A stretch of DNA of 64,000 bases from Henricia sp. BOLD:AAB3569 (taxonomy: Eukaryota > Echinodermata > Asteroidea > Spinulosida > Echinasteridae): assembly GCA_037783545.1 (NCBI GenBank), contig JBBELK010000366.1, positions 1-64,000 on the forward strand. Direction: 5' to 3'. This document shows positions 15,385 to 64,000 of the stretch, one piece after another (the first letter of the stretch is position 1; every line of letters starts with the position of its first letter). Below the pieces are notes generated by a model. The model saw only the letters and a list, made by a program, of their open reading frames with translations. It ran no database searches and was not told the DNA's origin. Both the position numbers and the translations under genes were made by a program.

Positions 15385-15480
15385 CATACATTACTCATAC
15401 ATTACTTATACATATTCATCGATACTCATACATTACTCATACACTACTCACATTACTTATACACTACTCATACATTATAT
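15385..15480. repeat. 11-bp minisatellite ATTACTCATAC
   Basis: About eight imperfect tandem copies of CATACATTACT. Also in copy III at about 25753-25848. Confidence 0.7.
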
Positions 15481-17756: not shown

Positions 17757-17764
17757 CGTGTACA

Positions 17765-19108: not shown

Positions 19109-19164
19109 GGGGGGGGGGGTGGGGGGGGGGGGTGGGTGGGGGGGGGGGGGGGGTGGGGGGGGGG
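19109..19164. repeat. Poly-G tract, 56 bp (copy II)
   Basis: G runs broken by single T's. The matching tract in copy III (29476-29560) is 85 bp. Potential G-quadruplex and a likely polymerase-slippage or sequencing-error site. Confidence 0.9.
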
Positions 19165-20930: not shown

Positions 20931-21324
20931 TCTTTCCTGCCTGATCCCAGAATCCATCCATGCAGATTGCTAGAATTAATCTAGATTGTGCACAACAGAA
21001 TTGAACCCGGAAGGGGTGGTTAAAACATCATTTATTTTCAGTCATGGGCATAACACTATGTACTGCACTGCTGTTTTATTTTAGTCCCTGCTCTGGATTT
21101 GGAATCGTTGTTCAAGATGTTTCCATTGACTTCGGCCTCTAGGTCCAATTGGACCCGCTGGTCAGGAACAAAGTTCGTCGGAACAAAGTTGCAAGAAATG
21201 TGACATTTCCTGCATGTTCTTAGAAAATCATGAAGATCTCAGACAACCCATTTTGTTAAGTTTTCTAACTGATTGAACCAGCGTGGAATGAATCGCGCGT
21301 TTCAGAAACAGCAGTAAAGTGCAG

Positions 21325-21815
21325 CGTTTACACTCGAATCGGCAAAGGTGGATACAGATCCAACATTTTTATTGCGACCACAAAACTGAACATTTGCCGC
21401 GTTTACACTACACCCCAAATCGCTTCAACTCGCTTCAGAAACCGCAAAAGTCACCACTAAATGTAACTGCAGCGCATGCGTGAGCTGTTAGGTGTTGCTG
21501 CACTAGTGCCAGATTGGTCAATTAAGACTACTACAAAAAATGCGGGCACCGCCCCAAGGAAACTCAAATTGCCGAATCTGTATTCGGGTAGCGTTTACAC
21601 TACAAGCGACCTTGACGATTGCAGGGTTCAACCCCGCAATTGCGGGGTTCAACCCTACCCCAAAGGTGACTTGATAAAGGCGAATCAGACCCGGGTCTGG
21701 TCCGCCTTTTTCAATTCACCTTTTGCGTTTACACTTAGTGCCTACCCGGCTTCAACTCCCCTTTTTGGAAATTGCGGAGTTCGATTCGGCAACTGAGGCG
21801 ATTCGAGTGTAAACG
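21325..21815. mobile_element. hAT-like MITE, 491 bp (copy II)
   Basis: Second copy of the element at 1611-2101, same ends and flanks. Confidence 0.6.
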
Positions 21816-22330
21816 GGGTGCAGTCATGATCAGCCTTGTTCAGAGGTGTTCGTACATAGTCAGGTGATAACACGTACACGTTACTGACCGATAAATTATA
21901 TAAGCTACATCTATCGGCCTACTCCATATCTTTTGATCAAAGTATATGCTATAATTGGATTTCTTTTTTAACCGCGTATAGGCATAGCTATTTCATGTAC
22001 GAGGTTACAAACCTATATAATCCCTTCAGATGGACATTAAAATAAATCCAGTACACTCTCTGAGTCTATTTTATGTTCTTTAATTGCGTCTAGAATTTAA
22101 AAAAAGGAAACTCTGTCATATTTTTTCAAACTACGATCATCGTAGATAACGAGTAACCATATATGCCCTATACATGCATATATAAAAATTATGCTTGTTT
22201 GTGCACCAAAAGTGCATTGACCTCTCACTGACCTCAGAGGTCATATCAGCAATGCCTCGTCCATGTCTTAAATTGACGTTCAAAGTATGAACTATAGCAT
22301 TGTACAAAGTTTCATGCTTTAGTCACAACC

Positions 22331-23109
22331 CACTGGGCATTTTACCCGTTATTACCCGGGTTATAATATACAAATATTGACTGCAATGAGGGGCATGGTT
22401 AAGATTATAGGCCCAAGGTGATCTCGAAGCCATGACTATGCCCCGAGGCGGAAGCCGAGGGGCATAGTCATGGCTTCGAGATCACCGAGGGCCTATAATC
22501 TTAACCATGACCCGAATAAACAGCAGTCAATATTTGTTTTATATACCGAATGTGTAGATTTTTGTCATCTGGTTGGTTAAAAGTAACGAGACAGCATATA
22601 CAGTCATGACAGTGGTCCTTCGCGTTTCGATTTCGGAAGCTGGTCTACGGCGGAAAAGTTGTATATTTACAGCAAACATTGTAGCATAATCACCTGGCAC
22701 TTTAGTAGCACATTTCACCTGACACAGTTTTCACTGTAGGCCACTTCTCTTACTTTCTTAAGGACTTCATCATCTACGACAGACGACAAAATGACGTCGA
22801 GATTCCGCCATTACCGTCCTGATGAATGTTTACGTGAAGCGCACAGCTGCATAGTTGGTGCACAGCTATAGCTATGCTAACACATGTAATGCGCGCGTCC
22901 GGGACCCGCTAAATGACTATGCCCGGGGCATGGCAAAGACTATTGACCGGTGGGCATATACGCGCCGGGTCTAGCCGATTCAATGCCCCCACTTTTAACC
23001 AATCAGATGACTGGAATCTACGCATGAGGTATATAACAAGTATTATATACCTCATGCGTAGATTCCAGTCATCAGGGGCCAATTTCATGGCGTTGCTTAG
23101 CACAAAAAT
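22331..23109. repeat. Truncated left arm of CACTG foldback (copy II)
   Basis: Same as 2617-3395. Ends at the unit junction 23109|23110 and includes the 66-bp palindrome at 23007-23072. Confidence 0.7.
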
Positions 23110-23403
23110 GCGGCATAGGCCTATACCTTTCTGATTTGATCTGCAGCTTTTTGGAGAAATTCCTGTGCAAAAAAGGGGCAATTTTTACAACTTCCTGATC
23201 TGTGCAAAGCTGCATTAATTCTACACTGATATATTTTGTTGTCTACAAAGTAATTTTGCTCCAAATTTAATTACGGCAGATGCAGAAATTGTTCATATTT
23301 CATTAACAGACAGTAATCCTCTGCAGCAGCACGTATATAAACATTCTGTGCATGGCTGCAGGTTACATTGAAAAATTAGTGTGAAAGGCAAATTGAACAC
23401 TGT

Positions 23404-24874
23404 AATGAAACTCATGTGTGTAGCTCATTTATTGCAGTTGTGTAGCTCAGAATGCATGTTTTTGAATCTTGTACTCCTACTGAATTCAGGAATTCAGTTT
23501 TGTTAAAAATTGCAACTGAAAGATTAATAATTTCTTGTTTTGCAGATTAACATTCCATTCTTTTGAAAGTACACTGTTAATGAAAATCCTCATTGCAATT
23601 CAAGAATACTCATAATTGATTAGTTTTGTGTTTCACATGTTTAGACACTGAAAAATATGAGACTTCTAAATTTGAAGTGCTCACTTGCAGTTTTGTTTCA
23701 CACCCCATGCCATTTTTAAATGAATGTTCAGGTCATATAGGCCTACCTAGGCAATTATACTGGCTGAGGATTGTTGTATCAACTATATTAGGCCTAATTT
23801 GAAATGTTTGAACTTGAATAAATGTCTGGGAACTTATTTTGTTGAGTTTGTATTGAGGTGGCATAGTCATGAAGTCCCCCGGCCTGGAATTTTTTTCTAC
23901 AGGAGGGAAACATTTCCTGTAAATTGTGTGCCTGCTTATTTGCACATTGCAAAAAAATGTATGTTATCTGAAAGGTCCCTTCAAAAATACTGGATCATGC
24001 AAATGGAATTGAAGGATTTAACACAAATAAACTCAAGTGTGTAACTCAGTCTTAATTCAGAATGCATTTTTAAAATCTTGATGTATGTCACACTGAATTC
24101 AGTTTTATTAAAAATTGCAACTGAAAGATGAATAATTTCTATTTTTTTGTAGATTAACATTCCCATCTATTAAAAGTAGGGATGGGCATTTACGGTTAAT
24201 TCAGAAACCGGTTTGCAATTCTTTCCAGTGTCGGTTAACCGGTTAACCGTTCAGCCGACACCAAAGTTGTTGGTGTTGTTTTACTTTATAGGTGCATTTG
24301 CAATGCACACAATACCCCAGGCCCCCAAAATATCATTGAATCTTTATCGGGTGACAATTTTACTACGACTCCATATACATTTATTTCAATTTCATGAAGT
24401 AAATACAAAGAACCTTTGAAAACTATTGTAAATTCTTTAAAATTGGGTTTCGTTTAAACGTTCGGCAAAATGGTTTTTAATTTTTTCCCCGGTTAACCGG
24501 TTAAATGTCCAATCCCTGGTTGAAAGAGTGCATTATGTTAATGAAAACCCTCAAATCAAGCATCCTCATGATAATTTGATTAGTTTTGTGCTTCACAAGT
24601 TAATCAGACAGATACATGAGACTTCCAAATTTGAAGGAATGGATTCAATGGACTGCTCACTTAATTGCAGTTTTGTTTCACACCCCATGTCCTTGTTAAA
24701 TGAATGTTCAGGTCATAATCCCATTACTAGGTGACTCTTGTGTCAAATATTAATTTAAATAAGACTACCGAGAACTTATTTTGCTGAGTTGTGTACCTGC
24801 TTAATTATTTTGTGCATTGCAAAACATGTCTTTATCTGAAGCTCCCACCCGGCGGGCCACAAAAATATTAGATC
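23404..24874. repeat. Old internal two-fold duplication (copy III)
   Basis: Collinear with 3690-5160, including the nested hAT-like MITE at 24177-24518. Confidence 0.65.
24177..24518. mobile_element. hAT-like MITE, 342 bp (copy III)
   Basis: Same as 4463-4804, with an intact GGTTAACCGGTTAA palindrome near its right end. Confidence 0.6.
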
Positions 24875-25351
24875 TGCTACTACATTGTACATGTACATGT
24901 TGAACTTCAAGAAAAGGATAAACAAGAACAGTTGGTTTTTATATTATTTTCGTTTTTTTGCACTTTTAGCATGAAACTGAAATAAATGGCACAGCAAGGA
25001 ATAAGCTATCCAAATGTTGTTTTTCCATGTAGGACCCCACCCAATCACTCGCACCCCCCTCACAGTAAACCTCCCAGGTACACCAGTCCCCCTACGCCCC
25101 ACCCCCAAAGTGACCTAGCCATTAAAACGTTCGTGCTAGCTATATCTCTATTCTCGCTGCATGAGCTGAGTCACATACACACTGCATGCAATACGCGCAA
25201 TGTGTACAGTACAGTACTCGTATGCAGTTTGCGCACACGTACATGCATGCTGCGCTGCAGATATCGATATCGCGGTATCGAACACCGCGACGTGAATGAA
25301 TATTTATGAGCTCGATTGACCTTTGACCCCAGCGGGGAATTGGAGGTTAAG

Positions 25352-25448
25352 TTCTGGACTATATTATGCGCTGTCCAAATAATATCGATATTCCGCCCTC
25401 TATAGTCGGCCGCGCTACGATCCAATATCGCAATAATATAGTCCAGAA
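25352..25448. mobile_element. 97-bp inverted-repeat MITE, uninterrupted
   Basis: TTCTGGACTATATTATGCG and CGCAATAATATAGTCCAGAA form near-perfect terminal inverted repeats. In copy II this element is split by Ngaro. Confidence 0.75.
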
Positions 25449-27008
25449 TCTGGACTAACGTTAGCCCAACGTTGGATCAACGTCAGTAATTGACGAAGAA
25501 ACGTTGGACCAACGTTAGAAAATGACGTTGTTCCAACGTAAAGTTGCACTTCCGAATAACGTTGGCACAACGTTGTTTATAGGTTGGCGTTAACGTTGGA
25601 CAAACGTCATATCGCTCAATTCCCAACCTTATTTCCACGTCAATTCAATGCTGGCTCAACGGCAGACGTAAATTATTGACGTCTTATTGACGTCTTATTA
25701 ACGTCTTTGTGGGGTCGTATGCAAAGCCAAAAAGACGTTATTTCCTGACGCCCCATACATTACTCATACATTACTTATACATATTCATCGATACTCATAC
25801 ATTACTCATACACTACTCACATTACTTATACACTACTCATACATTATATTTATGCGCGACTTCTATTTATGCTCCACAAAACCTGCAACCTGTAACCCAT
25901 GGTTGGCACACACCTACTAACCGAATACCAAATTTAATTCTAATCACTCGATCGCCACTTTCAGTTTGTTCATCCCCAACAATTGCCAATTTGCCTATTA
26001 TCGAGCAACAACCCATTTACAAAAATCAAAACAACTGCCAAAACTGAAGCAAATTAGCCTTTTTACACGGTAAATCTGGTCACGACCACTTTATGACGCA
26101 CGAATCGAAAACGACTGAAAAAAAGACGTCTTTAACACGTCGTGAGCCCACATGTTGCCGTTAAGGTTGGATAAACGCCATGCGCGACGCCACACGTACT
26201 GACGTCACAACGGTGGCCATAACATGACGTCACACTGACGTCCGAAGACCTACGCAAGACCGACGTCACAAGGGTTACAATAATGACCATAGTTTGACGT
26301 CTGATTGACGTCAAACTTGCGCCGCTACTCTGATGTTACAGTACAGTGGTGACCATAAGTTGATGTGCGGCCGACGTAAGATTGTCGACGTTAAGCCCGG
26401 TTTCCATATAGACGTAACAAACGCGGGGAGTGCCGCAAACTAGCAACGCAAACAGTAACGCAGACAGTCGGCAAAGTTGAACCAAGTTCAACTTTGCCGA
26501 CTGTTTCCGTCAGTGTTTGCGTTTGGGTTGTTTGCGTCTAGTCTGCGTGTGCGCGTTACGATTATATGGAAACCAGGCTTTAGACTTTCGACGTTAGACT
26601 GACGTCACAGTGGTGACTAAACAACGACGTCCCTCTGTCGTCACATTTAAGAAGCCACTGTGACGTCACAGTGATGACGGTAATTTGACGTAAATTGTTG
26701 TCCCTTAACCCACGTTAATTCGACGCAGTATGTCGACGCCGTACTGACGTAATGTGATAACCTTTATATGACGTCTTACCGACGTTATATTTATGACACT
26801 TTATTGACGTCAAATATTGACGTTAAAGTGACGTCATGTTGACCAAATGTCTAACTTAATGCCGACGTATAGCAAATACGGAAATCGCCGGCCCATATCT
26901 GACGTCGTACCGACGTCGTACACCGACGGGCGACGTTCGTCGACCTATGCCGACCTTTGCCGACGTCGGTGCGACGTATGCTTGCTGACTGGGACCACAC
27001 ATGCCCCC
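25449..27008. repeat. ACGTTGG / TGACGTC tract (copy III)
   Basis: Same as 15080-16640. Contains the minisatellite at about 25753-25848 and the palindromic MITE at 26395-26578. Confidence 0.7.
26395..26578. mobile_element. 184-bp palindromic MITE (copy III)
   Basis: Collinear copy of 16027-16210. Confidence 0.75.
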
Positions 27009-27467
27009 ATCCATGCACCAGAACCACGCAGCAATCCTCCACGAAACCGCCGTCCACCTGAACACCTCAAGGACTTTGCCACTTAAAGACTGTAGATAGA
27101 CACCTGCATATTTTGTACCAAAGCTGAGAAAATGTATACTAGCATTTTGTTTCCCGTTTATTGTTGTTAACTAAAGTTTTAAAATTGGCTGCTAAAAGTG
27201 TAATCTGGTTAGCATTAATACTGAAAAATAAGGCATACTCGAGAGTCGTCAAAATAAGGACACTCAAACATTTCAGAATTTATTTGGACATTGTTTTCAT
27301 TTATTCAATCCTCAACTTTACATTCGCCAAATTCCATTTTCACATGTGCATAACTTTTATTCAAGGTGGAAAGGGATGTAGTATTCATTAATCCAAGTTT
27401 GTCACCTAAGGCGCTCCGTACCGATCTACAATAAAGGCCAAAGGTCACCCCTCAGTCAGAAGTCATG

Positions 27468-28124
27468 ACAGCCACAAAACCATGTGTAATTCTCTCTCTC
27501 AATATCTAAGTTTAGGCTCTCGGATCTTACAGAGACGATCACTTTTATCTGCCTGATTATTGTCAGTGAAGTGCAGATAGTCCAGCAGGTCCACAAATCT
27601 GTCTTTGGGTATGATGTTGTGGAAGAAAGGAGTTTCAAGTATGGCGTTTCTCGTCCAGTAAAGTTTCAGTTCAGGTTTGGGCATTATTCCCATGACGATT
27701 ATCAATGCCAGAAACACCAACATCTCTTCTGAGGTAGTCTTGAACCATTCACTCCAGTGACTTCGACTTGGCGTTCAAAGTATTGGATGTCGGCGGCGTA
27801 GCGATTTGTCTCATCGGCGATGTAGGCCGTCAGTTCGGGAATGAACAACTTTTCTAAAAACTCCACGGGGCTGCTGGTGTCGTCCAAATGCCGCACTTGA
27901 ACTCCCGTTGTACCGCAAAGGTCATATCGACGCGGGAAGTTGTCACTGTTCTTCCACTGAATTGACCCAGTAGTCTTAGTTTGCTTGGTACGCTTCGCTA
28001 ACGGCGCTTCTTCGTCAAAATCACTACTATCACTACTTTCACTATCTGAAATGTGTTCGAATTCTAATTCTAAATATGAACCACTCGTTGCCGTCGCAGT
28101 TTCCTAATTCTCACTCGAAGACAT
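27468..28124 (-). pseudogene. piggyBac transposase 5' part (copy III)
   Basis: Same truncated, frameshifted remnant as 17100-17756, with the same stop at codon 7. Confidence 0.85.
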
Positions 28125-28132
28125 CGTGTACA

Positions 28133-28478
28133 CCCCTCCTCCAAAACGTGATCGGGACGTTGTTGGCCTCCGCATTACGCTCACGCCGACGTCTCCACTG
28201 GCGTTAACGACCATCATTTCTGTGCAAGGTAATCTGAGATTCATCGGTGAACAGCACAGTGGACCACTGCTGCCTGTCCCAGGTCACGTGGTCACGTGTT
28301 TACTGCATATGATCACGTCGGTGCTAAGCTGTCAAGGGTGTCAGTGGTATCACCTGCAGTGGTCATCTAGCATTCAACATGAAGTGATGAAATCGGTTGC
28401 GAATGGTCTGTCGGGACATCCTGGTGCCTCGCATATCTCGCAAACGTGATTGACGTTGGGTAGACTTGAGGTCAAGTC
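28133..28478 (-). pseudogene. Tc1-like transposase fragment (copy III)
   Basis: Same as 17765-18110, including the FTDES block. Confidence 0.8.
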
Positions 28479-29475
28479 TCTAGACAGTCGTATTTGGTCC
28501 GTCTGACGCCTATAATCCCCACACGCAACAGTCGTTGTCATGAATAGTACCTGTCTAGAGGTCGATTAGACTTGATCTCATTTCAAGCCCCGACAACCCC
28601 AGCAAAAAACCACAAATAAAACACAATTTGTATATAAATTATAATACTGTTTTACTCTTGCATGTGTAGCAGTCAACCGCGCCCTTCTGAGCGTCATAAC
28701 ACATTTTATGAAATAAATATCTTCAAAATACATGTAGCATTCCTTAACTAGTACACTACACTTGTAATAACACTTCTCTTGTGTTGTGTTTTGTCGTAAA
28801 AAAATAACTGCCCAACCTGGCTTAATAATTATTAAACTTAATAATTTACGGCCCTGAGACAGGCGAAAAACCAGAGTTAAAACCTATTTTTTGTGGCAAA
28901 AACTCTTGTGGCAAGACCCCGAAGGCGGTCGAGCTATGGACATTGAACGAATGGAACTCCAGGGTCTCTGCTGTTTGAACGAGTAATACATTTATGTAAG
29001 ACTTAAACATCACTGAAGCGATATTGTGTGGCGTGGCGACTGCGAATGCCACCAAAAGCATTCCACGCCCTTATATACCCACACCCCGTGCCTCGCCTCA
29101 TTGCACCTCAACTATTTGCATATCAAATTCCATGCATATCTCACACTTTTAATGAGATAGTAATTCTCTTTTCTATATCCATGACAAAGAGAATTTATAA
29201 TTCCCAGTCCATTCACGACTACGCTGCTGCCGTTTACGAAACAGCCGGTCTAGTTACAGACTTGACATCAAGTCTAGACGCTGGGCGGCCCTTGCATCAC
29301 GGTGTCTGAGGGCATAGGTCCTCAGGTATTGATCGTCACCCCGATTAGTAAGTCGTAAAGCTCCACTTCGGGGCCAATCTCGCACGTACCAAGTGCCAAG
29401 TCCAAAAAGTGCCAAAAAACAGCCCCTAAACTACCCGGGAAGACATCGGTTTGGAAATGTGACTGGGGTATTACT
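28479..29475. other. Non-coding remainder of the unit (copy III)
   Basis: Collinear with 18111-19108; no gene recognised. Confidence 0.4.
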
Positions 29476-29560
29476 GGGGGGGGGGGGGTGGGGGGGGGGT
29501 GGGGGGGGGGGGGTGGGGGGGGGGTGGGGGGGGGGGGGGGGGGGGGGTGGGGGGGGGGGG
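29476..29560. repeat. Poly-G tract, 85 bp (copy III)
   Basis: Homologous to 19109-19164 but 29 bases longer. A glycine-rich frame crossing it is an artefact. Confidence 0.9.
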
Positions 29561-31326
29561 CTGGCACCCCAGCCCGGCTCCCTTAAAATGTATTCGCTCG
29601 AGGTCACAAAACTAGTAAATCGAATCCTCTCCGTGAGTACCTCTGACGCGAGAAGGGCGTGGCAAAGCCCACAGGACCATCGTCGCCCGATTAGGGGGAA
29701 ACCACTTAATTATAGCAGTCAAGTTGGTGTGGTTGAGCCACCGCGGCGCGGTGGTGCTGAGGCGATCGGTTCGGGTTGGTGCCTGGAATGTCCTTTCCCT
29801 TCAAGATGATGCCCGCGTGCCTGCCTTATCGGCGGAGCTCGCTCGTTTCGTCATAGCCGTTGTTGCCTTGTCCGAGGTTAGGAGGCCACGTTTGGGTGAG
29901 ATCAGAGGAGGTGGTTACACCTACTTCTGGTCCGGCCGATCTGATGGCCAGCACCGACTGCGTGTGGCAGTGCCGGGTGCTCACCGGCTTGCTCCGTTGG
30001 TGAGGGATGGTTACGCCAGTCTCAGAGCGTATGATGCGTCTGATACGAGGCTTGCCCATACTTTGGGCGTATAGTCTCATTTATCACAGACGAGTGTGCG
30101 CTGCGACCGGGGATAGTATTCACTCCATGATGGAGGCATTCTGTGCCCAACTCCACTCCGGGTGGATGCGGTACCCAAGGGGGATACGTTGGTCCTTCTC
30201 GGTGACTTTAATGCTACCACTGGCACATCCAGAGATGGTTATACGAGCCATATGTATCGGTCATCACGGCTCTGGATCACGTGGTGAAAGCTCCTCAATG
30301 CTGCTTGACTTTACAGTAAGTCGAGGGTTGACGATAGCTGGATCGTGGTTCCAGAGATCGGACTGGCGTCGCTGGACTTGGTATTCCAACGATGGTTTCA
30401 CCAGGAAGGAGATCGATCATGATCTTGGGGTCGGGTGCTAGAGGCTGATCGAGAACTTCCGCGTGTACAGGGGTGCCCAGTTCTTCACCACTGACCATAG
30501 GCTGCTGGTAGCTACCCTAAAGCTGCGGGGAAACTGCTGAAATCGTCAATAAGAGCTGAATGGTGAGGCTCTACGGCAAGACTGGACAGCACAGGAAGCT
30601 GCGTCGCGAAGCGCTTCGACGATGCGTTGTGACCTGCAGGCCAGAGTCGGGATCTCTGTGGGACGGTCTAGAGCCACTTAAGTACAAGCGACTCCCAGCC
30701 GGCCCACGGGGCAATCTGGAAACTGCGCTCTCGTGGGTGCCTCTGTTAGAAGCCTGACGTACGCGCGGCTGACGGCGAGCTCCTGACCGGGGAGTGTACC
30801 ATTAAGGAACGTTGGGCCAGATACTTTGAGGAGTGCTGACCCGCCTGGCTGCGAAATCCCTGCGGATGGAGACGAGCCCCTAGCTGCCGAACCGCCAGTG
30901 AGCTGCGACCAACCGAGCCTCGAGTAAGTTTGAAGGCTCAGGGTCAGCTATAAGGACGGCAAGGCACCAGGTGTCTGCGGCGTCTACGCGGAGATGCTCA
31001 AGGCGGGCGGCGAGGCATCTCCTGTGGTTGCTGCACACTCTCATCTGTTCCGTCTGGAACTCGGGTGTCATCCCATCTGACTGGGGGAAGGGCATTATTG
31101 TCCTAATCTGGAAGGGGAATGGTGACATTCGAGAGTGCAGTCACTACAGGGGCGTGACCCTCCTCTCGGTTCCGGGCAAGCTGATCTTTGCGCGCGTGCT
31201 TCTCAATCGGGTGCACCATGCAGCAGCTGCTGGATCCGAAGAGATCCACCGTAGACCGCATCCTGGCCCTCTGAGTCCTCACCAAGTGCTTTCGAGAGTC
31301 ATCTGCTTAAAAAAGTTTTGGGCAGC
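29561..31326 (+). pseudogene. Degenerate AP-endonuclease LINE (copy III)
   Basis: Third copy of the LINE remnant, with the same blocks and same broken end as 19165-20930. Confidence 0.82.
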
Positions 31327-31724
31327 TCTTTCCTGCCTGATCCCAGAATCCATCCATGCAGATTGCTAGAATTAATCTAGATTGTGCACAACAGAATTGA
31401 ACCCGGAAGGGGTGGTTAAAACATCATTTATTTTCAGTCATGGGCATAACACTATGTACTGCACTGCTGTTTTATTTTAGTCCCTGCTCTGGATTTGGAA
31501 TCGTTGTTCAAGATGTTAATTTCCATTGACTTCGGCCTCTAGGTCCAATTGGACCCGCTGGTCAGGAACAAAGTTCGTCGGAACAAAGTTGCAAGAAATG
31601 TGACATTTCCTGCATGTTCTTAGAAAATCATGAAGATCTCAGACAACCCATTTTGTTAAGTTTTCTAACTGATTGAACCAGCGTGGAATGAATCGCGCGT
31701 TTCAGAAACAGCAGTAAAGTGCAG

Positions 31725-32215
31725 CGTTTACACTCGAATCGGCAAAGGTGGATACAGATCCAACATTTTTATTGCGACCACAAAACTGAACATTTGCCGC
31801 GTTTACACTACACCCCAAATCGCTTCAACTCGCTTCAGAAACCGCAAAAGTCACCACTAAATGTAACTGCAGCGCATGCGTGAGCTGTTAGGTGTTGCTG
31901 CACTAGTGCCAGATTGGTCAATTAAGACTACTACAAAAAATGCGGGCACCGCCCCAAGGAAACTCAAATTGCCGAATCTGTATTCGGGTAGCGTTTACAC
32001 TACAAGCGACCTTGACGATTGCAGGGTTCAACCCCGCAATTGCGGGGTTCAACCCTACCCCAAAGGTGACTTGATAAAGGCGAATCAGACCCGGGTCTGG
32101 TCCGCCTTTTTCAATTCACCTTTTGCGTTTACACTTAGTGCCTACCCGGCTTCAACTCCCCTTTTTGGAAATTGCGGAGTTCGATTCGGCAACTGAGGCG
32201 ATTCGAGTGTAAACG
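31725..32215. mobile_element. hAT-like MITE, 491 bp (copy III)
   Basis: Collinear copy of 1611-2101. Confidence 0.6.
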
Positions 32216-32763
32216 GGGTGCAGTCATGATCAGCCTTGTTCAGAGGTGTTCGTACATAGTCAGGTGATAACACGTACACGTTACTGACCGATAAATTATA
32301 TAAGCTACATCTATCGGCCTACTCCATATCTTTTGATCAAAGTATATGCTATAATTGGATTTCTTTTTTAACCGCGTATAGGCATAGCTATTTCATGTAC
32401 GAGGTTACAAACCTATATAATCCCTTCAGATGGACATTAAAATAAATCCAGTACACTCTCTGAGTCTATTTTATGTTCTTTAATTGCGTCTAGAATTTAA
32501 AAAAAGGAAACTCTGTCATATTTTTTCAAACTACGATCATCGTAGATAACGAGTAACCATATATGCCCTATACATGCATATATAAAAATTATGCTTGTTT
32601 GTGCACCAAAAGTGCATTGACCTCTCACTGACCTCAGAGGTCATATCAGCAATGCCTCGTCCATGTCTTAAATTGACGTTCAAAGTATGAACTATAGCAT
32701 TGTACAAAGTTTCATGCTTTAGTCACAACCCACTGGGCATTTTACCCGTTATTACCCGGGTTA

Positions 32764-34357
32764 TAATATACAAATATTGACTGCAATGAGGGGCATGGTT
32801 AAGATTATAGGCCCAAGGTGATCTCGAAGCCATGACTATGCCCCGAGGCGGAAGCCGAGGGGCATAGTCATGGCTTCGAGATCACCGAGGGCCTATAATC
32901 TTAACCATGACCCGAATAAACAGCAGTCAATATTTGTTTTATATACCGAATGTGTAGATTTTTGTCATCTGGTTGGTTAAAAGTAACGAGACAGCATATA
33001 CAGTCATGACAGTGGTCCTTCGCGTTTCGATTTCGGAAGCTGGTCTACGGCGGAAAAGTTGTATATTTACAGCAAACATTGTAGCATAATCACCTGGCAC
33101 TTTAGTAGCACATTTCACCTGACACAGTTTTCACTGTAGGCCACTTCTCTTACTTTCTTAAGGACTTCATCATCTACGACAGACGACAAAATGACGTCGA
33201 GATTCCGCCATTACCGTCCTGATGAATGTTTACGTGAAGCGCACAGCTGCATAGTTGGTGCACAGCTATAGCTATGCTAACACATGTAATGCGCGCGTCC
33301 GGGACCCGCTAAATGACTATGCCCGGGGCATGGCAAAGACTATTGACCGGTGGGCATATACGCGCCGGGTCTAGCCGATTCAATGCCCCCACTTTTAACC
33401 AATCAGATGACTGGAATCTACGCATGAGGTATATAACAAGTATTATATACCTCATGCGTAGATTCCAGTCATCAGGGGCCAATTTCATGGCGTTGCTTAG
33501 CACAAAAATTTGCTTAGCACAGGATTTATTTGCTTTATAAAATGGACTACAAGCCAAAATTATACACTAACTTGTGTTCTTTGCAAGAGTAGGAGAATAC
33601 CTTTCAAAACACATCACTTACGATTTTGGCTGGCAATCCATTTTTGCAAAATAAAGCAAACAAATCCTGTGCTAAGCAAATGTTTGTGCTAAGCAACGCC
33701 ATGAAATTGGCCCCTGATTGGTTAAAAGTGGGGGCATTGAATCGGCTAGACCCGGCGCGTATATGCCCACCGGTCAATAGTCTTTGCCATGCCCCGGGCA
33801 TAGTCATTTAGCGGGTTCCGGACGCGCGCATTATACATGTGTTAGCATAGCTATAGCTGTGCACCAGCTATGCAGCTGTGCGCTTCACGTAAACATTCAT
33901 CAGGACGGTAATGACGGAATCTCGACGTCATTTTGTCGTCTGTCGTAGATGATGAAGTCCTTAAGAAAGTAAGAGAAGTGGCCTACAGTGAAAACTGTGT
34001 CAGGTGAAATGTACTACTAAAGTGCCAGGTGATTATGCTACAATGTTTGCTGTAAATATACAGCTTTTCCGCCGTAGACCAGCTTCCGAAATCGAAACGC
34101 GAAGGACCACTGTCATGACTCTATGATGTCTCGTTACTTTTAACCAACCAGATGACATAAATCTACACATTCGGTATATAAAACAAATATTGACTGCTGT
34201 TTATTTGGGTCATGGTTAAGATTATAGGCCCTCGGTGATCTCGAAGCCATGACTATGCCCTTCGGCTTCCGCCTCGGGGCATAGTCATGGCTTCGAGATC
34301 ACCTTGGGCCTATAATCTTAACCATGCCCCTCATTGCAGTCAATATTTGTATAATAA
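32764..34357. repeat. Long foldback (inverted repeat), arms of about 0.75-0.8 kb
   Basis: From TATAATATACAAATATTGAC on the left to GTCAATATTTGTATAATA on the right, the two halves are inverse complements around a centre near 33570-33620. Shared arm features include the GGGCATAGTCATGGCTTCG hairpin, the CGGAATCTCGACGTCATTTT region and GCTTAGCACA words at the centre. Arms differ by substitutions and by a 66-bp palindrome present only in the left arm (33407-33472). This intact foldback establishes that 33509|33510 is native sequence and 3395|3396 is a rearrangement junction. Confidence 0.85.
33407..33472. mobile_element. 66-bp palindromic mini-element flanked by CAG (copy III)
   Basis: CAG at 33404-33406 and 33473-33475 flank the palindrome. 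The opposite arm lacks it and keeps a single CAG. Confidence 0.7.
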
Positions 34358-55898: not shown

Positions 55899-56378
55899 GG
55901 GTGCACACAAGTAAATAGGGCTCCCATAGGAACCAATGCTAAATGCCCAATTTTCAAAAATCATTTAAAAATACTCACAACTCTCTCAGCTTCTAAGGAC
56001 AACAACCAGAATACTCACTGATTTCTCATCTTTTTAATTCTGTTCAATTTTATGGGGGTAATCCGTCACTTTTATCCCCTAATTTCCACTTGAAACAAAA
56101 CTAAGCCTACAACAGTGAAACTTGCTAATCAGACCTGCATCCATTTTGGAACAAAGGCACATACGCTACTGGGCAAAATAGGGCCACTTCTAGGAGCTAC
56201 AGTGTCCAAAATGTTTGTAGTTGAAAGAAAAAATACCCCACATCGCGGCGATAGTCATATTCTACACAAGACCACACTCGTTCAGCTCGCAATTCTCTCT
56301 AATATAAAAGAATTTGAGGGCATACAAAATATTCATGAGCTCGGCGCACAGATCTTGCCTATTTACTTGTGTGCACCC
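55899..56378. mobile_element. 480-bp TIR element, left copy
   Basis: Perfect 21-bp inverted ends beginning GGGTGCACACAAGTAAATAG. The same 480-bp length recurs at 57365-57844 (constant offset 1466). CGAG immediately precedes this copy and immediately follows the other. A 94-codon frame beginning in each copy has no recognisable family. Confidence 0.85.
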
Positions 56379-56802
56379 TTTAATAACCCGGGTTGTTGAA
56401 TCTTGGCACACAAGTACTCTTGTGGGATAGAATGAACATTACTGATCACATTTCTGCAAAAAAAATTGAAAACAAAATATTGGAAGACAAATGACAAGCC
56501 CACCCAGATAGGGCCCCGCCCATGATGTTTCGTACACTGCTGAATGGACTTGAATGCACATGCACTCTCTAAGATTTTTCCCTCACAAGTCCATCTTCAA
56601 ATTCCACCTGAATTTTGGAATGTCATAAGTCTCGGGATATTTGTTGTGTTCTGCTGTCCCATATTGTAGTAATGGGGCAGGACAGGGGGGAGGGGGGAGA
56701 ACTAGAAAGAGGAGAGTATTGCTAAAACTCTTCCAAATCAAGTCAAGTAAATTGTACATGTATACTGATGCAAAATATCTACCATATGTTGTTCCATTAA
56801 CC

Positions 56803-56880
56803 CCCCCCCCCCCTCCCCCCCCCCTCCCCCCTCCCCCCCCCCTCCCGCCCCCACCCCCCTCCCCCAACCCTACCCCCAGC
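56803..56880. repeat. Poly-C tract
   Basis: C runs broken by single T, G or A, between the two 480-bp copies. Confidence 0.9.
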
Positions 56881-57364
56881 TACCCCAACGGTCTATTTTC
56901 ATGCCCCAGGGTGGGGATTTTGATGCATATAGAAATCAAATTGTATGGCATCTAAGGAGCAAACATGCATGTTTTGCCACACGGGTTGGAATATTTTGTC
57001 ACCTAAATTTTGCCCCAGGGGTGGGGATTTTGTTACTTGACAATCACCCTCCCCCCCGCACCTCTTAGGTCAAGCAGCCGGGGAGGGGGAGGGGGAGTGG
57101 AACAAGCTTGATAGCTGCAGTGGTGCATAATACTACATGTAATACCTGTTTTGCTCTGGGCTAACTTCTCTCCACTGTGATTGGCAGAATTTGTCTTGCA
57201 CCAGACCTGAAGAAATAAAATAAATAATATTTTTACCAAATTAAAATGACTTCAAAATGTCATTATTCCTGTAATTTCAACTTTTACCTTCGATGTAAAC
57301 AAACTCACGTGTTTAAATACATGTGGAGTAATGAACAACAAACAACATGGCCGCCACTCCTACA

Positions 57365-57844
57365 GGGTGCACACAAGTAAATAGGGCTCCCATAGGAACC
57401 AATGCTAAATGCCCAATTTTCAAAAATCATTTAAAAATACTCACAACTCTCTCAGCTTCTAAGGACAACAACCAGAATACTCACTGATTTCTCATCTTTT
57501 TAATTCTGTTCAATTTTATGGGGGTAATCCGTCACTTTTATCCCCTAATTTCCACTTGAAACAAAACTAAGCCTACAACAGTGAAACTTGCTAATCAGAC
57601 CTGCATCCATTTTGGAACAAAGGCACATACGCTACTGGGCAAAATAGGGCCACTTCTAGGAGCTACAGTGTCCAAAATGTTTGTAGTTGAAAGAAAAAAT
57701 ACCCCACATCGCGGCGATAGTCATATTCTACACAAGACCACACTCGTTCAGCTCGCAATTCTCTCTAATATAAAAGAATTTGAGGGCATACAAAATATTC
57801 ATGAGCTCGGCGCACAGATCTTGCCTATTTACTTGTGTGCACCC
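57365..57844. mobile_element. 480-bp TIR element, right copy
   Basis: Direct copy of 55899-56378; followed by CGAG. Confidence 0.85.
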
Positions 57845-57902
57845 CGAGACATGTGTGAAATGTAAACACACTTACACACACACACCGACTGGCTGTCAAA
57901 AA

Positions 57903-57967
57903 ATGGATCGTCAAGAGAACACAGCAGACGCGTCAAAAAAGAAAAAACGAAAACCTCGCCAATCAGG
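57903..57967 (+). CDS. Exon-like short basic frame in TTAA element
   Basis: ATG then DRQENTADASKKKKRKPRQS with a nuclear-localisation-like KKKKRKPR. It ends at a consensus donor AGG|GTAAGA. It could be the first exon of the element's lost transposase. No downstream exon recognised. Confidence 0.3.
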
Positions 57968-58126
57968 GTAAGAATATTGTCATGGGACAAACCGATAGAA
58001 AGGACTTGGATGATTTATACCCAATGGTTATTGTAGACACGAATTTAAAAAACAGGCACATCACACGCAACGGAAGAAGGAAAAATAATTTCTTTCTCCA
58101 GGCTGGAAATAAGACTAATATAATTT

Positions 58127-58174
58127 CTCCGCCATTTATGGGAGTCAAGATTTTGACTCCCATAAATGGCGGAG
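58127..58174. repeat. Perfect 48-bp palindrome
   Basis: CTCCGCCATTTATGGGAGTC...GACTCCCATAAATGGCGGAG with a four-base loop GATT. Confidence 0.85.
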
Positions 58175-58409
58175 CGTGCTGCTTCGAGAAATTACGCAAA
58201 ATTGAAGCATTCCTAAGGCACGTTTGTGTGGATCATTATAGTCTACTTTTTAAACATCTTTCAGATCGTGCTCATTATACTTCAAACGCTTGTAATAGCC
58301 CAAAAACGCCCAATAAAGCGCAACCCGAAGGCAACGTGTTCCTTTAAGTGGGGGTTACGGGGTAGTTGCGTGCCCGCAAATCGTTGCGGGGGCTTTGTGA
58401 ATAAGGCCC

Positions 58410-59429
58410 CTGGGCTGTTAGACCAATGAGAGACACAGGATTTTTTTTGGCCTGGAACTTGTGACCTTTTAATGAAGCTGTTTCGAACAATCATCTCGCG
58501 CGTTGTATCTCGCGACATATTAGCCGCAAATACCACAATTTTTATCGGGGAGATCTTTTTATGTACATGTTGGCAACAGCGTCCGTAGCTATTATGCAAT
58601 TTTGAATGTCGCGCTACGTGCACGCATGCTTTAGTATATCGGCACTGCGATGACCGAGCAACATGCGCGGCGCGTGATTGGTCAGTTGCGATCACTGTCA
58701 CTTGCTAATAAATATTCATATATATTCCTAAATACAGCCTAGCTCAACTCGTTTCAGCAAGGGTTGTGTGGAACTCGGTATGGTGGAACAAATACTCTTG
58801 CGGCAGGAAGATGGGTGTACCCAGTAATTCTGAATGTTAATGGTGTAGAAATTACAAAACTCCAGGAATTAGGTCTTGTTTTTGTATCAGGCTTGCGTCT
58901 TTGTGAGCAATTTGTTTCAGAAGTGGAATTAAATCCGAATGGAATCGTGATTCCTCGGTGAGATCAGAATCATTTCCAGAAATGTTGTACTTGTAATTGC
59001 CCAAGACTACTAGCGGTTGAATACTTGGGTTAAATGCTCTTAAGATTATGTTGAGCATTCTAAAAGGTTTTCGGAACAAGGCCATGCAAGCCCATTCCAT
59101 ATAGATCTTAGACTTATTAGTCGAGCTATTTATTGACATTCAATGTTAATTTTTTGCTCGTAGGGAACTTGAGTTTTTGCTTTATCAGCCATTCATGGTT
59201 GCTTTTAAAGATGGAACATCCCCCATCATTTTTTTCCAATTAACCTTTTCATAAATACATGCTTGTGTGAATTTAGACAAAAGACTGGACCTGCTTTGTG
59301 GGAAAGATACATTACATTAAAGATACAAATTACAACCTTCCCACGGTGGTAGTTTTATTCCAAGTTCACTGAAGCAGTATTTTCAAAAAAGGTTTATACA
59401 GTCTAACCCTCTTAATAACAGGTCCTTGG
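58410..59429. other. Intron 9 continuation
   Basis: No gene recognised. 58740-58830 is the inverse partner of 53597-53694. A 95-codon minus-strand frame at 58852-59139 has no recognisable family. Confidence 0.4.
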
Positions 59430-59910
59430 GACCTTAAAGAATAGTATACATGATTGGTAAACTGTTACAAATAGTTTTATCCCCCTGTGTGATTGAAGAT
59501 ATGCATGATTAAAAGCAACCTGAGCAAAACCCATCTCCGTACTTCATCTAACTTTTGAGAAAACGGTCAAAAAAGGGTTTGCAGTCATTTCGCCCCAAAA
59601 CCACTTCGCCCTGAACCATTTCGCCCTGAACAACGGCCTGTGCACGAAGTGGTTTTGGGGTGAGGTAGCATTTGGGCGATGTAGTGTTTGGACGAAGTAA
59701 TTTGTGACGAAATGGCACTCGGGCGAAGTGGTTTGGGGGCGAAATCAAATGGCACTCGGGCGAATTGGTTTTGGGGCGAATTGAATTTTCGTCTCATGAG
59801 ACGAAAAATAATTGTTCTACTCATTCCTCAAAGACTGTACTATAGCACTTCTGACAAAACCATTTCAGGGGAAGTTTTCTACGGTCATCATGTTTATATT
59901 GTGTAAGTTA
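59430..59910. repeat. Dispersed repeat, copy B
   Basis: Uninterrupted relative of 40900-42010, with the CACTTCGCCC inverted array at 59583-59790. It ends TTGTGTAAGTTA, where Harbinger ends begin. Confidence 0.7.
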
Positions 59911-60668
59911 AGCCACTCTCCCACATACGAGTATACGGCGCAATTTGAGCCAAAATCAGGGCCATACGGGAGTCAGAGCCGTATCGCCCTGTATCACAAA
60001 AGTATGGCCCCGTATCAGAAAGTATCGCTCCGTATTTCGAGGAAGATTTTATACGGGCCGATACGGGTTAATACGGGCCTACATGTAATTCGGGACTATA
60101 CGGGACTTTTTACGGGAGATTTTTATCTCCCGAATCGGCCTGTATCAGTACGCAACCCGTATGGCCCTGTATAAGAAAATATATCCCCGTAAAGCCCCCT
60201 TCCCACATACAGGTATAGTACGTCGTATCGACGGCGGATGCCCATCCCTGCTCATCCGGGAGACATCCCTGAGTATCCCCAGTACACCCCTGGGCATCCC
60301 TAGTAGCAGTGGCGGATACGGCGAAGCCGTGGCCACGCCGCGAAAATTTCAAACATGTTTGAAATTTCCGGGAGTCTGCTCCCGGTAGGACACACCCGTA
60401 GCACAGCCGGCGGACATCCGACGGCATACGCCTACACCCGGCGGCTAATCCGGCGCATTCGTGAACAGCCGTGGCAGACACGTGGCGTGTGAAGTCGTCG
60501 GATCCACCACGGCTCCATGCCGGGTGTGCAGGGCCAGGGATGCGTCACGGATGGGTTCACGGCTGTGACGGGTGTACCAGGTATGAGGTACGTATGCGAC
60601 GGATAGCGCCGGCTGATTGGCGGATACCACGTATGATCCGACGAGTGCACTACGGCTTGAGGACGGGT

Positions 60669-60673
60669 CCAAT
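60669..60673 (+). promoter_or_regulatory. CCAAT box of Harbinger accessory gene
   Basis: CCAAT 15 bases upstream of the TATA box. A GATCC word stands at 60635-60639 and an inverted CCAAT (ATTGG) near 60616. Confidence 0.5.
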
Positions 60674-60688
60674 ACGGTTTGGAGGTAG

Positions 60689-60696
60689 TATAAATA
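60689..60696 (+). promoter_or_regulatory. TATA box (TATAAATA) of accessory gene
   Basis: Consensus TATAAATAG, 92 bases before the ATG and ~32 before the cap heptamer. Confidence 0.8.
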
Positions 60697-60718
60697 GGAG
60701 TGCGCTGGCCCAGAGAAG

Positions 60719-60725
60719 TCATTCG
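60719..60725 (+). promoter_or_regulatory. Cap-site heptamer TCATTCG of accessory gene
   Basis: Matches the YCATTCR heptamer known at sea-urchin histone mRNA starts and also the general initiator TCAKTY. Spacing to TATA is canonical. The same heptamer precedes the transposase gene. Confidence 0.65.
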
Positions 60726-60780
60726 TATCTCTGCTTTCGACGAGATCACATCGACGTGTACGACAACATAGTATACAAGA

Positions 60781-62139
60781 ATGCCTAGAGTCAGAGCTTC
60801 CAAGAAGTCCACAACTGCTGCTGCTGCTGCTGCTGCCAGAAGAGAGCAGGAAGAACAGCCACTCCAGTCAACGCCTGCTGATGAGGGGCCTGATGAGGGG
60901 CCTACCGAAGAGCCTGCTGAAGAGCCTGCTGCGGATCCTGCCGAGGATGTTGAGCCAGCCAGTCCGGTTCCTGGACCTCCTTCGCCAGTTTTGGGCCGGA
61001 CCTCCAGACCTGGATCATCCTTGTCTAAGCGCAGCTCTGACGACCCAGCCAGGAGAAGACATGACAAGCTGCACCTGCCTCCCGAAGATGAACAGAAGGT
61101 GGCTGACTGGTTCGAGGACCACCCTATGTTCTATGACAAGGCCCGGCGTGACTACAAGGACACTGCCCTGAAGTCCCGGAAGCTGGAGGAGATAGCTGCC
61201 TCTCTGTCTGTTCCCTGCTCTGCCCACGCCTTGAAGACCTGGCTGGATTCCATGCGGACATCGGCTGGCAAGCTTCTGAAGCAAGGTCCTTCTGGAACAG
61301 CGAAGAAGAACCCAACGGAGAAGGAGTCCTGGGTGATCCAGAACTTTGGGTTCCTCGCCGACCACATCAAGAGGGTGCCCGGCAGACAGGCTGGTCGGAT
61401 CGTGCGGCAGAAGAGGATCTCCGACTCCAGTTCTAGCGAACAGCGCCAGTCAGATCCCGAGGAGGAAGAGGAGGAGGAAGAACCTGAGGTGGCCTTCATC
61501 GAGGAGCCTGTGGCCGGAACCTCCAGGGGGAAGGGGAAGAAGAGGAAGACTGAAGGACCTTCTCCTATGGTCCAGCGACCCGTCGTTGCTGCCCTGCTGA
61601 CCTCCCAAGCTGTGGAACAGAGGACCAAGGTGGAACAGGCACCCAAGGACCACCACAGCCTGCGTGTGAAGAACTGGTGCCAGTACCTCTACACCGAGGC
61701 CATTGAGCTTGAGAAGGATGACTACGAAGACTTCCAAGCACAAGTGGTCTCCCTGCCGCACCAGGTAAAGAGGACTGCGCGCCAGAGGAAACAACAGCAG
61801 CAACACCAGTTCCAGCATCCACCGCAGCCCACCATGATGCATCCCATGCCCATGCAGCACCAGGGCTATGGGATGGCATATGTGCCTATACAGCCGCCTC
61901 CTGCACCTTACAGGATGCCACAGCCAGGGACCCCGACAGCCCAGCCACAGCAGCAGCAGCCGGTGCCTTCAACATCAGGACCTGCAGCGACCGACACCGG
62001 CCCTCCATCCATCGGCAGCCTGTTGGCCTCTTTGGACAACATGACTCCAGGGACTCCAGGGACTCCATTCTCCTTCACCAGTCAGAGGAGCCCTACAACA
62101 ACATCACCAGCGAAGTCCAGCAGCAGCCGTTACCAGTGA
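60781..62139 (+). CDS. Harbinger accessory DNA-binding protein (MADF type)
   Basis: Intronless, 452 codons. An alanine-rich and acidic proline-rich N-terminus (to ~90) is followed by a MADF domain at ~102-196: EDEQKVADWFEDHPMFYDKA, DYKDTALKSRKLEEIAASL, LKTWLDSMRTSAGKLLKQG, and WVIQNFGFLADHI. Then come an acidic patch with a run of eight E's, a basic KGKKRK nuclear signal near 251, and a BESS-like helical segment near 298-340 (WCQYLYTEAIELEKDDYEDF). The C-terminal ~110 residues are Q/P/T-rich. PIF/Harbinger elements need a Myb/MADF-type partner that binds the transposon ends and carries the transposase into the nucleus. The ATG follows a CCAAT-TATA-TCATTCG promoter with a ~60-base leader. The message ends in a histone-type stem-loop (62167-62182). 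Confidence 0.9.
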   Translation: MPRVRASKKSTTAAAAAAARREQEEQPLQSTPADEGPDEGPTEEPAEEPAADPAEDVEPASPVPGPPSPVLGRTSRPGSSLSKRSSDDPARRRHDKLHLPPEDEQKVADWFEDHPMFYDKARRDYKDTALKSRKLEEIAASLSVPCSAHALKTWLDSMRTSAGKLLKQGPSGTAKKNPTEKESWVIQNFGFLADHIKRVPGRQAGRIVRQKRISDSSSSEQRQSDPEEEEEEEEPEVAFIEEPVAGTSRGKGKKRKTEGPSPMVQRPVVAALLTSQAVEQRTKVEQAPKDHHSLRVKNWCQYLYTEAIELEKDDYEDFQAQVVSLPHQVKRTARQRKQQQQHQFQHPPQPTMMHPMPMQHQGYGMAYVPIQPPPAPYRMPQPGTPTAQPQQQQPVPSTSGPAATDTGPPSIGSLLASLDNMTPGTPGTPFSFTSQRSPTTTSPAKSSSSRYQ

Positions 62140-62166
62140 GCAAGTCTTGCTCCAACTGAAACCCCC

Positions 62167-62182
62167 GGCCCTTTTCAGGGCC
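62167..62182 (+). terminator. Histone mRNA 3' stem-loop
   Basis: GGCCCTTTTCAGGGCC: a six-base-pair stem with loop TTTC, followed by ACCA, 27 bases after the accessory gene's stop codon. This is the exact form (GGYYYTTTTCARRRCCACCA) bound by SLBP in replication-dependent histone mRNAs. The purine-rich 62195-62204 downstream resembles the histone downstream element that pairs with U7 snRNA. Confidence 0.88.
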
Positions 62183-62194
62183 ACCAAATCCTCC

Positions 62195-62206
62195 AAAAAG
62201 AATAAA
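62195..62206 (+). terminator. Purine-rich downstream element overlapping AATAAA
   Basis: AAAAAGAATAAA begins 12 bases after the stem. AAAAAGAA resembles a histone downstream element; AATAAA at 62201-62206 could instead allow polyadenylation, as in some bimorphic histone genes. Confidence 0.55.
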
Positions 62207-62825
62207 CCAATCATCACAGTGTGTTGGCAAAAAAACAGTTCCCTCAGTCCCACTTGCTAATGAAAAACCCCCTATGCACTTTCCATTTCAATGACCTTTT
62301 CCCTTCAACTTTCTTTTCTTACTTTTTTTTATCTCTGATACCACTCTCAGAATTTTCTTTTCTTTTGGCCTAACAACTGAAGTCTTTTATTTAATTTTTT
62401 TGGGCCATGACAAAAGCACTCTTCTTTTTTGCAGGGCCTGACACAAGTACAAGTGTCTACTTTTTAAAATGGTAATAATTAATGAGAAGCACATGACAGC
62501 AATAATATGTACAAGTTTTGACAACACACAAGTAATATGTACAATTTTCTTACTAGTAATACCTATATACATTTAGGAATTTCTACTTACAATAGCTATA
62601 TACATATAATACAAATATACAAAGCGAAATCCACAGGTGCAGAGACTAGACCATGTCGCCCTGCCACTCAACACTGCCAGCTTCCGAGTTGAAGTACTCC
62701 ACCAGGTACAGTCTCTGTCTCTTGGCTTGTGTTGTCCCATAATCGCCTCTGGGTCCTGGAGCAGCATCTTGCAGTTCTCCTACATCCCTCCAGGTACCTG
62801 GGATGACTTGATGTGTGGCTCCGTC
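62207..62825. other. Convergent 3' region between the two Harbinger genes
   Basis: AT-rich. Holds the 3' UTR of the minus-strand transposase and its AATAAA at 62388-62393. Nothing else seen. Confidence 0.5.
62388..62393 (-). terminator. Poly(A) signal of the transposase gene
   Basis: AATAAA on the minus strand, 433 bases after the transposase stop. No histone-type stem-loop is found in this 3' UTR. Confidence 0.5.
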
Positions 62826-63959
62826 TTATCCATCTACCTCGTTGTGGGTCTGGGCAGTGAACCGGATTCGCAGCAGGTTATGCAGGCAGCAGCAGGCCAG
62901 GACGATGGACTCCACAGTCTTTGGTTGCTGTGGCATAGTTGTCAGGAGACAACGAAATCTGGCTGCCAGGATGCCGAAGGCATTCTCTACCACACGTCTG
63001 GCTCTGGAGCATCGGTAGTTGTAGATGCGCTGCTCCATGGTCATGTTGCGTAAAGGCAATGGCTTCATCAACCAGCTGCGAAGAGGAAAAGCGGCATCCC
63101 TCAACAGGAAGTACGTCAAAGGCACTTGGTCACCAGGAAGTGGTTCTGCAGGGGGTAGCCCCAGAGTATCACTTTCCAACCCTTCCCGGAAGTCCATCTC
63201 AGCAAACACCCCGCCATCGGATCCAGCTCCATTCGCTCCTGCATTCACGTAGATGAACTTGTAGTCAGCATCCACTACAGCCATCAGCACTATAGAGTAG
63301 AAGCCTTTGTAATTGTAGTAAATGGACCCGGACTTCTTGGGACATCTCAGGGCGACGTGCTTGCCATCAACTGCACCTATGCAGTGGGGGAAGTTCCAGC
63401 GGTCCTCAAACTTCTTCGCCACCTGCCTCCATTCATCTGGTGTTGATGGGCAGACTATCACCTCCTCAGCATAGGCGTCAATGATAGCCTCGCAGACCTC
63501 CGGAATAAACTTGGAGATGGTGTTGTGGGCCACTCTGAAACCATACATCAGACTCTGGTAGCTGCTTCCTGTTGCCAAATATCTCAGGGTAATAGCAAGT
63601 TTCAGGCCAGGCTCCAGTGCCTTCCTCCTGAAGGTGTTCTGTCGCTGTATCTTCCCCTGGATCTTCTCTAAAATTTCTTGCCAGATTGCAGCGTCGATGC
63701 GCAGGAAATTCCTCAGTCTGCCTTCATCTTCTCTCTGCAGTTCTTTAAGTAGAGTGTGGTAATGGCCCTGCTGCACTCTGCGAAGCAACCATGGTCGCAC
63801 CCACCATCTTCTTCTTGCTGCTCTACGGGCTGCCTGTTGTTCTCTTTTCTTTCTGCTCCTCTCCCTTTCTTCCTCGTCCAGAACCACTACAAGGGTAGTC
63901 GTACAAAGGACCTGGGCACTGGCAAGGTAGACATCTTCATCTGTTGTATCCTGGGACAT
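62826..63959 (-). CDS. Harbinger DDE transposase, apparently intact
   Basis: Single frame of 377 codons, close to HARBI1 length (349). A basic N-terminal region (ERSRKKREQQAARRAARRRW) leads into the helix-turn-helix-like part (FRRKALEPGLKLAITLRYLA, SLMYGFRVAHNTISKFIPEV). The DDE_Tnp_4 catalytic triad is present: D198 in CIGAVDGKHVAL, D248 in GANGAGSDGGVF, E325 in ARRVVENAFGILAARFR. It ends ACCCLHNLLRIRF. The enzyme would cut and join element ends at 3-bp targets with the MADF partner. The ATG at 63959 is 24 bases downstream of a TCATTCG heptamer on the same strand. The only oddity is a long acidic-then-basic extension ahead of the usual N-terminus. Confidence 0.93.
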   Translation of the reverse strand: MSQDTTDEDVYLASAQVLCTTTLVVVLDEEERERSRKKREQQAARRAARRRWWVRPWLLRRVQQGHYHTLLKELQREDEGRLRNFLRIDAAIWQEILEKIQGKIQRQNTFRRKALEPGLKLAITLRYLATGSSYQSLMYGFRVAHNTISKFIPEVCEAIIDAYAEEVIVCPSTPDEWRQVAKKFEDRWNFPHCIGAVDGKHVALRCPKKSGSIYYNYKGFYSIVLMAVVDADYKFIYVNAGANGAGSDGGVFAEMDFREGLESDTLGLPPAEPLPGDQVPLTYFLLRDAAFPLRSWLMKPLPLRNMTMEQRIYNYRCSRARRVVENAFGILAARFRCLLTTMPQQPKTVESIVLACCCLHNLLRIRFTAQTHNEVDG

Positions 63960-63983
63960 GTTGCCTCTCTGAAGTCTTGTGAA

Positions 63984-63990
63984 CGAATGA
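63984..63990 (-). promoter_or_regulatory. Cap-site heptamer TCATTCG of transposase gene
   Basis: TCATTCG on the minus strand, matching the accessory gene's heptamer. A TATA box would be expected about 30 bases further out, beyond the window end. Confidence 0.5.
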
Positions 63991-64000
63991 CCAGAGGCTG

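Follow-up and report, generated by a model that had tools for sequence, protein, structure and literature searches.

The locus described here raises the question of whether the accessory gene of a DNA transposon could use the 3' end signal of replication-dependent histone genes. PIF/Harbinger transposons encode a transposase together with a Myb/SANT/MADF protein (PMC9710019, excerpt), and the same two genes, a DDE_Tnp_4 transposase and a MADF protein, are present in the 64,000-nt stretch of Henricia DNA that was analyzed (the window). The transposase ORF (62826..63959 on the minus strand, including the stop) matches PF13359 (DDE_Tnp_4) with E 1.8e-30. The MADF gene is an intronless plus-strand ORF of 452 amino acids plus stop (60781..62139, codons 60781-62136) and matches PF10545 with E 9.3e-8; the first-pass annotation was thus correct in recognizing a Harbinger element with a MADF gene. 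Pfam found the MADF domain only, and no histone, in this ORF. No relatives of the whole MADF protein were found among the 7999 candidates sharing the most words with it, nor any of residues 96-205 among 31 candidates. The closest relative of the transposase is found in Diadema setosum (95% identity over 80%), and scans of viral and prokaryote contigs for transposase relatives gave no confirmed locus. Residues D200, D250, D290 and E327, which we take to be the catalytic residues, are invariant in a 43-row transposase alignment.

Sibling copies in the same genome define the ends of the element. They possess short terminal inverted repeats, as in other PIF/Harbinger transposons, with AGCCCCCTTCCCACATACAGGTATA on the left at ~60193 and the inverted copy TATACCTGTATGTGGGAAGGCCGC on the right. 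A 3-bp TWA target duplication is expected of such transposons; TTA/TAA stands at both edges of the copies inspected, the left and right triplets not always being identical. In the window the left terminal repeat of the family lies at 60193..60217 (plus strand), where the siblings start beside T(T)AA. Position 59911 had been considered as the left end on the basis of a broken host repeat and was rejected, as the siblings start at ~60193 and 59911-60192 is an outer, ATACGGG-rich repeat that precedes the window copy. The window copy of the element is atypical. Its match to the family breaks off at 64283, a position beyond the window, and it lacks the family's right end; in its transposase an in-frame stop precedes the conserved C-terminal tail, which was recovered by reading the frame beyond the stop. 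Elsewhere in the window are long duplications of near-identical sequence, 14989-23109 matching 25358-33509 at 99.5% and 1-5646 matching 19717-25367 at 99.7%. By eye, ORFs at 9458-14399 resemble those of a retroelement, with a CCHC-type motif and frames similar to reverse transcriptase and recombinase, and a perfect inverted repeat of 22 bp with a 4-nt spacer lies at 58127-58174.

The distinctive feature of the MADF gene is found immediately downstream of its coding region. The stop codon TGA ends at 62139, and 27 nt farther 3' is the histone-type stem-loop GGCCCTTTTCAGGGCC (62167..62182, plus strand), with a 6-bp stem and a TTTC loop. It is followed by ACCA (62183..62186, plus strand), the expected site of cleavage by the histone route, and by the purine element CAAAAAGAAT (62194..62203, plus strand), which resembles a U7 site and aligns with CAAAAAAGAGA of host histone genes; within it, AAAAAGAA begins at 62195, 12 nt after the stem. 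The stem-loop, loop, ACCA and purine element reported in the first pass after the MADF stop are therefore all where they had been placed. The predicted fold of the plus strand is the expected hairpin. Rfam gives a full-length match to Histone3 (RF00032) at 62162-62206 with 34.8 bits (cut-off 34 bits, window E 2.4e-6), which is the sole Rfam match over cut-off within the 64 kb; a laxer search of both strands of 56000-64000 revealed no second Histone3 match. A second small hairpin, GAGCAAGTCTTGCTC, is predicted by folding at 62138-62152, where it overlaps the MADF stop codon.

This 3' end departs from the histone pattern in several respects. The description of a full histone signal holds insofar as the Histone3 match is full-length and over cut-off, but the adenines 5' of the stem are missing, GAAT replaces GAGA in the purine element, and a poly(A) signal overlaps it. 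In particular, the 5' flank is not A-rich, the bases just 5' of the stem reading CCCCC. The AATAAA that the first-pass annotation had described as downstream is present (62201..62206, plus strand), but it shares 2 nt with the purine element and so is not merely downstream of it. A putative GU-rich downstream element of a poly(A) site, GTGTGTTGG, follows at 62219..62227 (plus strand). The hairpin signal is confined to the MADF gene; the convergent transposase gene has instead two A[AT]TAAA poly(A) signals on the minus strand (first bases 62391..62395).

The 5' region of the MADF gene contains a TATA box, TATAAATA (60689..60696, plus strand), and 30 bp after it a possible start site, TCATTCG (60719..60725, plus strand), presumably the sea urchin histone cap word. 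The idea that a whole histone cassette (TATA box plus TCATTCG) had been copied is nonetheless weak, because TCATTCG is also found at the transposase gene (63990-63984, minus strand).

A hairpin of this kind could in principle have arisen by chance, with no connection to histone processing. The exact 20-mer consensus does arise randomly, as it occurs at three places in a prokaryote genome collection (and at none in viral_contigs), with scores of 29.8, 22.7 and 21.2 bits; all three are below the Histone3 cut-off, and the best of them is antisense within a long bacterial ORF. Similarly, a laxer degenerate pattern allowing one mismatch, which finds only the same site in the window, also gives one match in 6 of 100 shuffles. 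Chance matches to the 20-mer are thus real, yet rare. Against a chance origin, the window contains a single histone-type hairpin with a 6-bp stem and 4-nt loop on the plus strand and none on the minus strand, and no hairpin of this type appeared in 200 Markov simulations of one strand. The match is moreover full-length, over cut-off and in the sense orientation, and because it is situated just after a stop codon, coincidence becomes less likely still; we regard it as very improbable.

A search of the 740.7 Mb genome with 60600-62300 as the query returned at least 45 matches, from which a set of 40 copies (39 fetched siblings and the window copy) was assembled. Four pairs in this set (L014/L017, L020/L022, L028/L046 and L040/L041) share their left flank, possibly as haplotype or segmental duplicates. 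Absence or decay of the stem-loop in sibling copies had been named in the first pass as grounds for refutation; the hairpin is instead exact in 36 of the 40 copies, altered in three and lost together with its region in one (L047). More specifically, one stem position is unpaired in L024 and L030, and L039 has a wobble pair. When Rfam was run on 20 of the 39 siblings, 17 scored over the Histone3 cut-off and these three altered copies fell below it. L030 additionally has a match to signal recognition particle RNA (L030:86-387, 209.7 bits) close to its transposon copy.

The purine element and AATAAA (62195-62206) show no variation among copies, and AAAAAGAATAAA is unvaried in the aligned copies. 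Nevertheless, this uniformity was rejected as evidence of selection. While the stretch from the stop codon to AATAAA is quiet, 47 of 400 windows of the same size are quieter, and codon positions vary about alike in both genes across the copies. The mean minority frequency is 0.0051 in the hairpin (62167-62186) and 0.0037 in the MADF ORF. A MADF frame of at least 440 amino acids is retained in 13 of 40 copies and a transposase frame of at least 425 amino acids likewise in 13 of 40, both counts requiring a start motif; the 437-residue transposase frame is found in 11 of 40. The sequences indicate that the family is a recent burst whose copies reflect the content of their founder and not selective retention, and because the burst is young, conservation within the family is no sign of selection.

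The signal is closely tied to this family within the genome. The exact 18-mer GGCCCTTTTCAGGGCCAC occurs 49 times and its reversed control not at all. Comparison with the lists of MADF matches placed 46 of these occurrences next to MADF 3' ends of this Harbinger family, and in 44 of the 46 the stem starts exactly 31 nt past the last codon; the other two differ in that the listed match ends elsewhere. The remaining three (C244, C683 and C752) belong to another repeat. Distant Harbinger-MADF relatives with 27-32% identity fall into three groups by sequence, and the six loci read (L052-L057) cover one of the two listed for one group and all those listed for the other two groups (three and two loci). 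At E up to 1, Histone3 matches none of these six; among the Harbinger loci read, therefore, only the present family has a histone-type 3' end. Two of the three distant groups show an intron-like frame break at GTAAGT...CAG, and one of these two has AATAAA after the stop. Because the distant relatives read are without the hairpin and two of their three families have an intron-like break, the hairpin seems to be a feature derived within this family, accompanying an intronless gene, and was probably gained recently, after the family split from other Harbingers.

The source of the signal was considered by comparison with the histone genes of the host. In a whole-genome search with RF00032, the best 75 of 128,444 candidates scored were all over cut-off, the window copy ranking below these 75. 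Thirteen of the 75 loci were read, and ORFs for H1 (L061), H2B (L066) and H4 (L067) were recognized by eye, the last lying in an array of ~4.1-kb units on C835. Their 3' ends consist of the hairpin, ACC(C)A or ACAAC, and then CAAAAAAGAG or CATAAAAGAG at a spacing similar to that of the transposon. In a 9-row alignment the transposon and the host genes agree in the hairpin, in the ACC that follows and in where CAAAAA lies. In contrast, the fourth stem pair is C-G in the transposon and U-A in the host genes, the 5' flank is CCCCC where the host genes have CCAAAC, CCAACC or ACAACC, and the purine site has GAAT (CAAAAAGAAT) where the host has GAGA (CAAAAAAGAGA). With the paired change, 54 of 54 pair cells are still standard; the change is confined to one row, however, and is reached by 44 of 500 shuffles. 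Because no similarity is visible outside the signal in this short alignment, a very recent copy of one of the three host ends (H1, H2B or H4) appears unlikely; an older or foreign capture, or a stepwise origin, may account for the signal instead.

Relative to the replication-dependent histone 3' end in general (RF00032), the transposon gene shares the 6-bp stem, the 4-nt loop, ACCA, the purine-rich site and an intronless structure, histone genes being without introns (PMC5636114, available portion). It differs in encoding a MADF protein and in the overlap of AATAAA with the purine site. The reading that we favor, with a probability of about 0.5, is that the MADF gene has a dual 3' end, histone-type and polyadenylated, with its message open to alternative processing at that end. 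SLBP and U7 would direct a cut after ACCA in cycling cells or in oocytes, yielding a tail-less, replication-linked message; otherwise AATAAA would be used and the MADF message would be polyadenylated. In histone messages the cut lies 4-5 nt after the stem (PMC7026596, in the part available). The supply of the DNA-binding partner would thereby be timed to S phase or to egg stores, and the transposase would keep its poly(A) end. Timing the MADF partner alone might be sufficient to time transposition. According to the accessible section of PMC9710019, the Myb-like partner of Harbinger3_DR in zebrafish binds to a subterminal motif and is required for it and the transposase to co-localize in the nucleus. 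Zebrafish eggs also store histone messages (PMC10883267, partial text), and by analogy this is the kind of storage that a transposon might exploit. We infer the RNA processing, its timing and any benefit from the sequence.

Overlap of the two signals has precedents among histone genes. In C. elegans, AATAAA comes right after the putative U7 site of histone genes and the messages still end at the hairpin (PMC1924863, excerpt), while in human H2AC18 an overlap of the poly(A) signal and the HDE permits either fate (PMC9756948, excerpt). The C. elegans genes and human H2AC18 and H1C likewise have a poly(A) signal overlapping or adjoining the U7 site; they differ from the transposon gene in being histone genes and in having RNA or biochemical evidence behind them. 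In favor of a dual end are the sense-strand Histone3 match over cut-off 27 nt past the stop, its family-wide occurrence, the concentration of the stem at MADF 3' ends of this family, the spacing similar to that of the host H1, H2B and H4 genes, the paired change in the stem and the lack of an intron. Against it are the C-rich 5' flank, full SLBP affinity reportedly depending on two adenines ahead of the stem (PMC10388802, available part), the lack of GAGA, the three altered stems, the lack of a sign of selection within the family and the limitation of the paired change to one row.

These same points bear on a rival that we consider a serious but somewhat weaker candidate, in which the hairpin is inherited but idle, the message undergoes ordinary cleavage and polyadenylation at the AATAAA at 62201, and the block is left over from an older capture or from drift in the founder. 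The succession of AATAAA and the GTGTGTTGG element, the absent 5' adenines, the altered U7 site and the lack of visible selection within the family are all as expected for an idle signal, as are the distant families, which were read without the hairpin and one of which has AATAAA after its stop. This explanation is less able to account for the three main parts occurring together at the right spacing, or for the paired change relative to host histone stems, which keeps the stem closed. Alternatively, the message may be polyadenylated without U7 cleavage and its hairpin bound by SLBP, serving storage in the egg or control of translation. The poly(A) signal directly after the hairpin suits such a role, and polyadenylated human H1C and H2AA3 transcripts do retain SL/HDE motifs (PMC9756948, excerpt). 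The C-rich 5' flank argues against this role too, and we consider it improbable.

To our knowledge, essentially all messages known to take the SLBP/U7 route are those of histones, and no transposon, Harbinger or otherwise, was found described with a histone hairpin in the open-licence literature. If a dual 3' end on the MADF gene is true, a DNA transposon would link the availability of its DNA-binding partner either to replication, the phase in which elements that move by cut and paste can increase in copy number, or to messages stored in the egg, at the time of germ-line formation. The timing of the transposon would then be directly testable.

Other dispersed repeats in this genome also carry strong Histone3 matches, several of the thirteen loci read showing no histone ORF recognizable by eye. 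Seven loci represented by L058 and L059 (C15:2037268 and C479:492406) score 46.9 bits and are among the best 75. The five of the seven that were read have different 5' start points and stay similar 3' of the hairpin for at least ~530 nt, as far as sequence was fetched; no histone ORF was seen by eye in this group. A second group of related dispersed repeats, L060/L068/L069 and L062/L063/L064, scores 38.3-45.8 bits and has broken reading frames, with a splice-acceptor-like stretch upstream in L060. The three stem occurrences outside the Harbinger family (L080-L082; C244:45746, C683:806410 and C752:165248) belong to a repeat gene whose ORF end resembles a C2H2 finger, Pfam finding nothing in its last 164 residues. 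The hairpin in L081, whose stem is likewise GGCCCT, is located 35 nt downstream of the stop codon and is accompanied by the host-type CAAAAAAGAGA site. The survey suggests that several repeats other than histone genes carry the signal, so that a histone hairpin alone would be no proof of a histone gene in such genomes. The occurrence of strong matches in these repeats also suggests a speculative and rather unlikely generalization, that mobile or dispersed DNA of the host lineage has repeatedly resorted to histone-type 3' ends for its expression, the cases being the Harbinger MADF gene, the C244/C683/C752 repeat, L058/L059 and L060-L064/L068/L069; selfish DNA would by this means obtain tail-less messages that are replication-linked or stored in eggs. 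Elsewhere among the Histone3 loci, histone hairpins occur as outward-facing pairs ~5 kb apart, one at L065 (C498:139012-, 144448+), with no obvious histone ORF, and another at C1010:62334-, 67238+.
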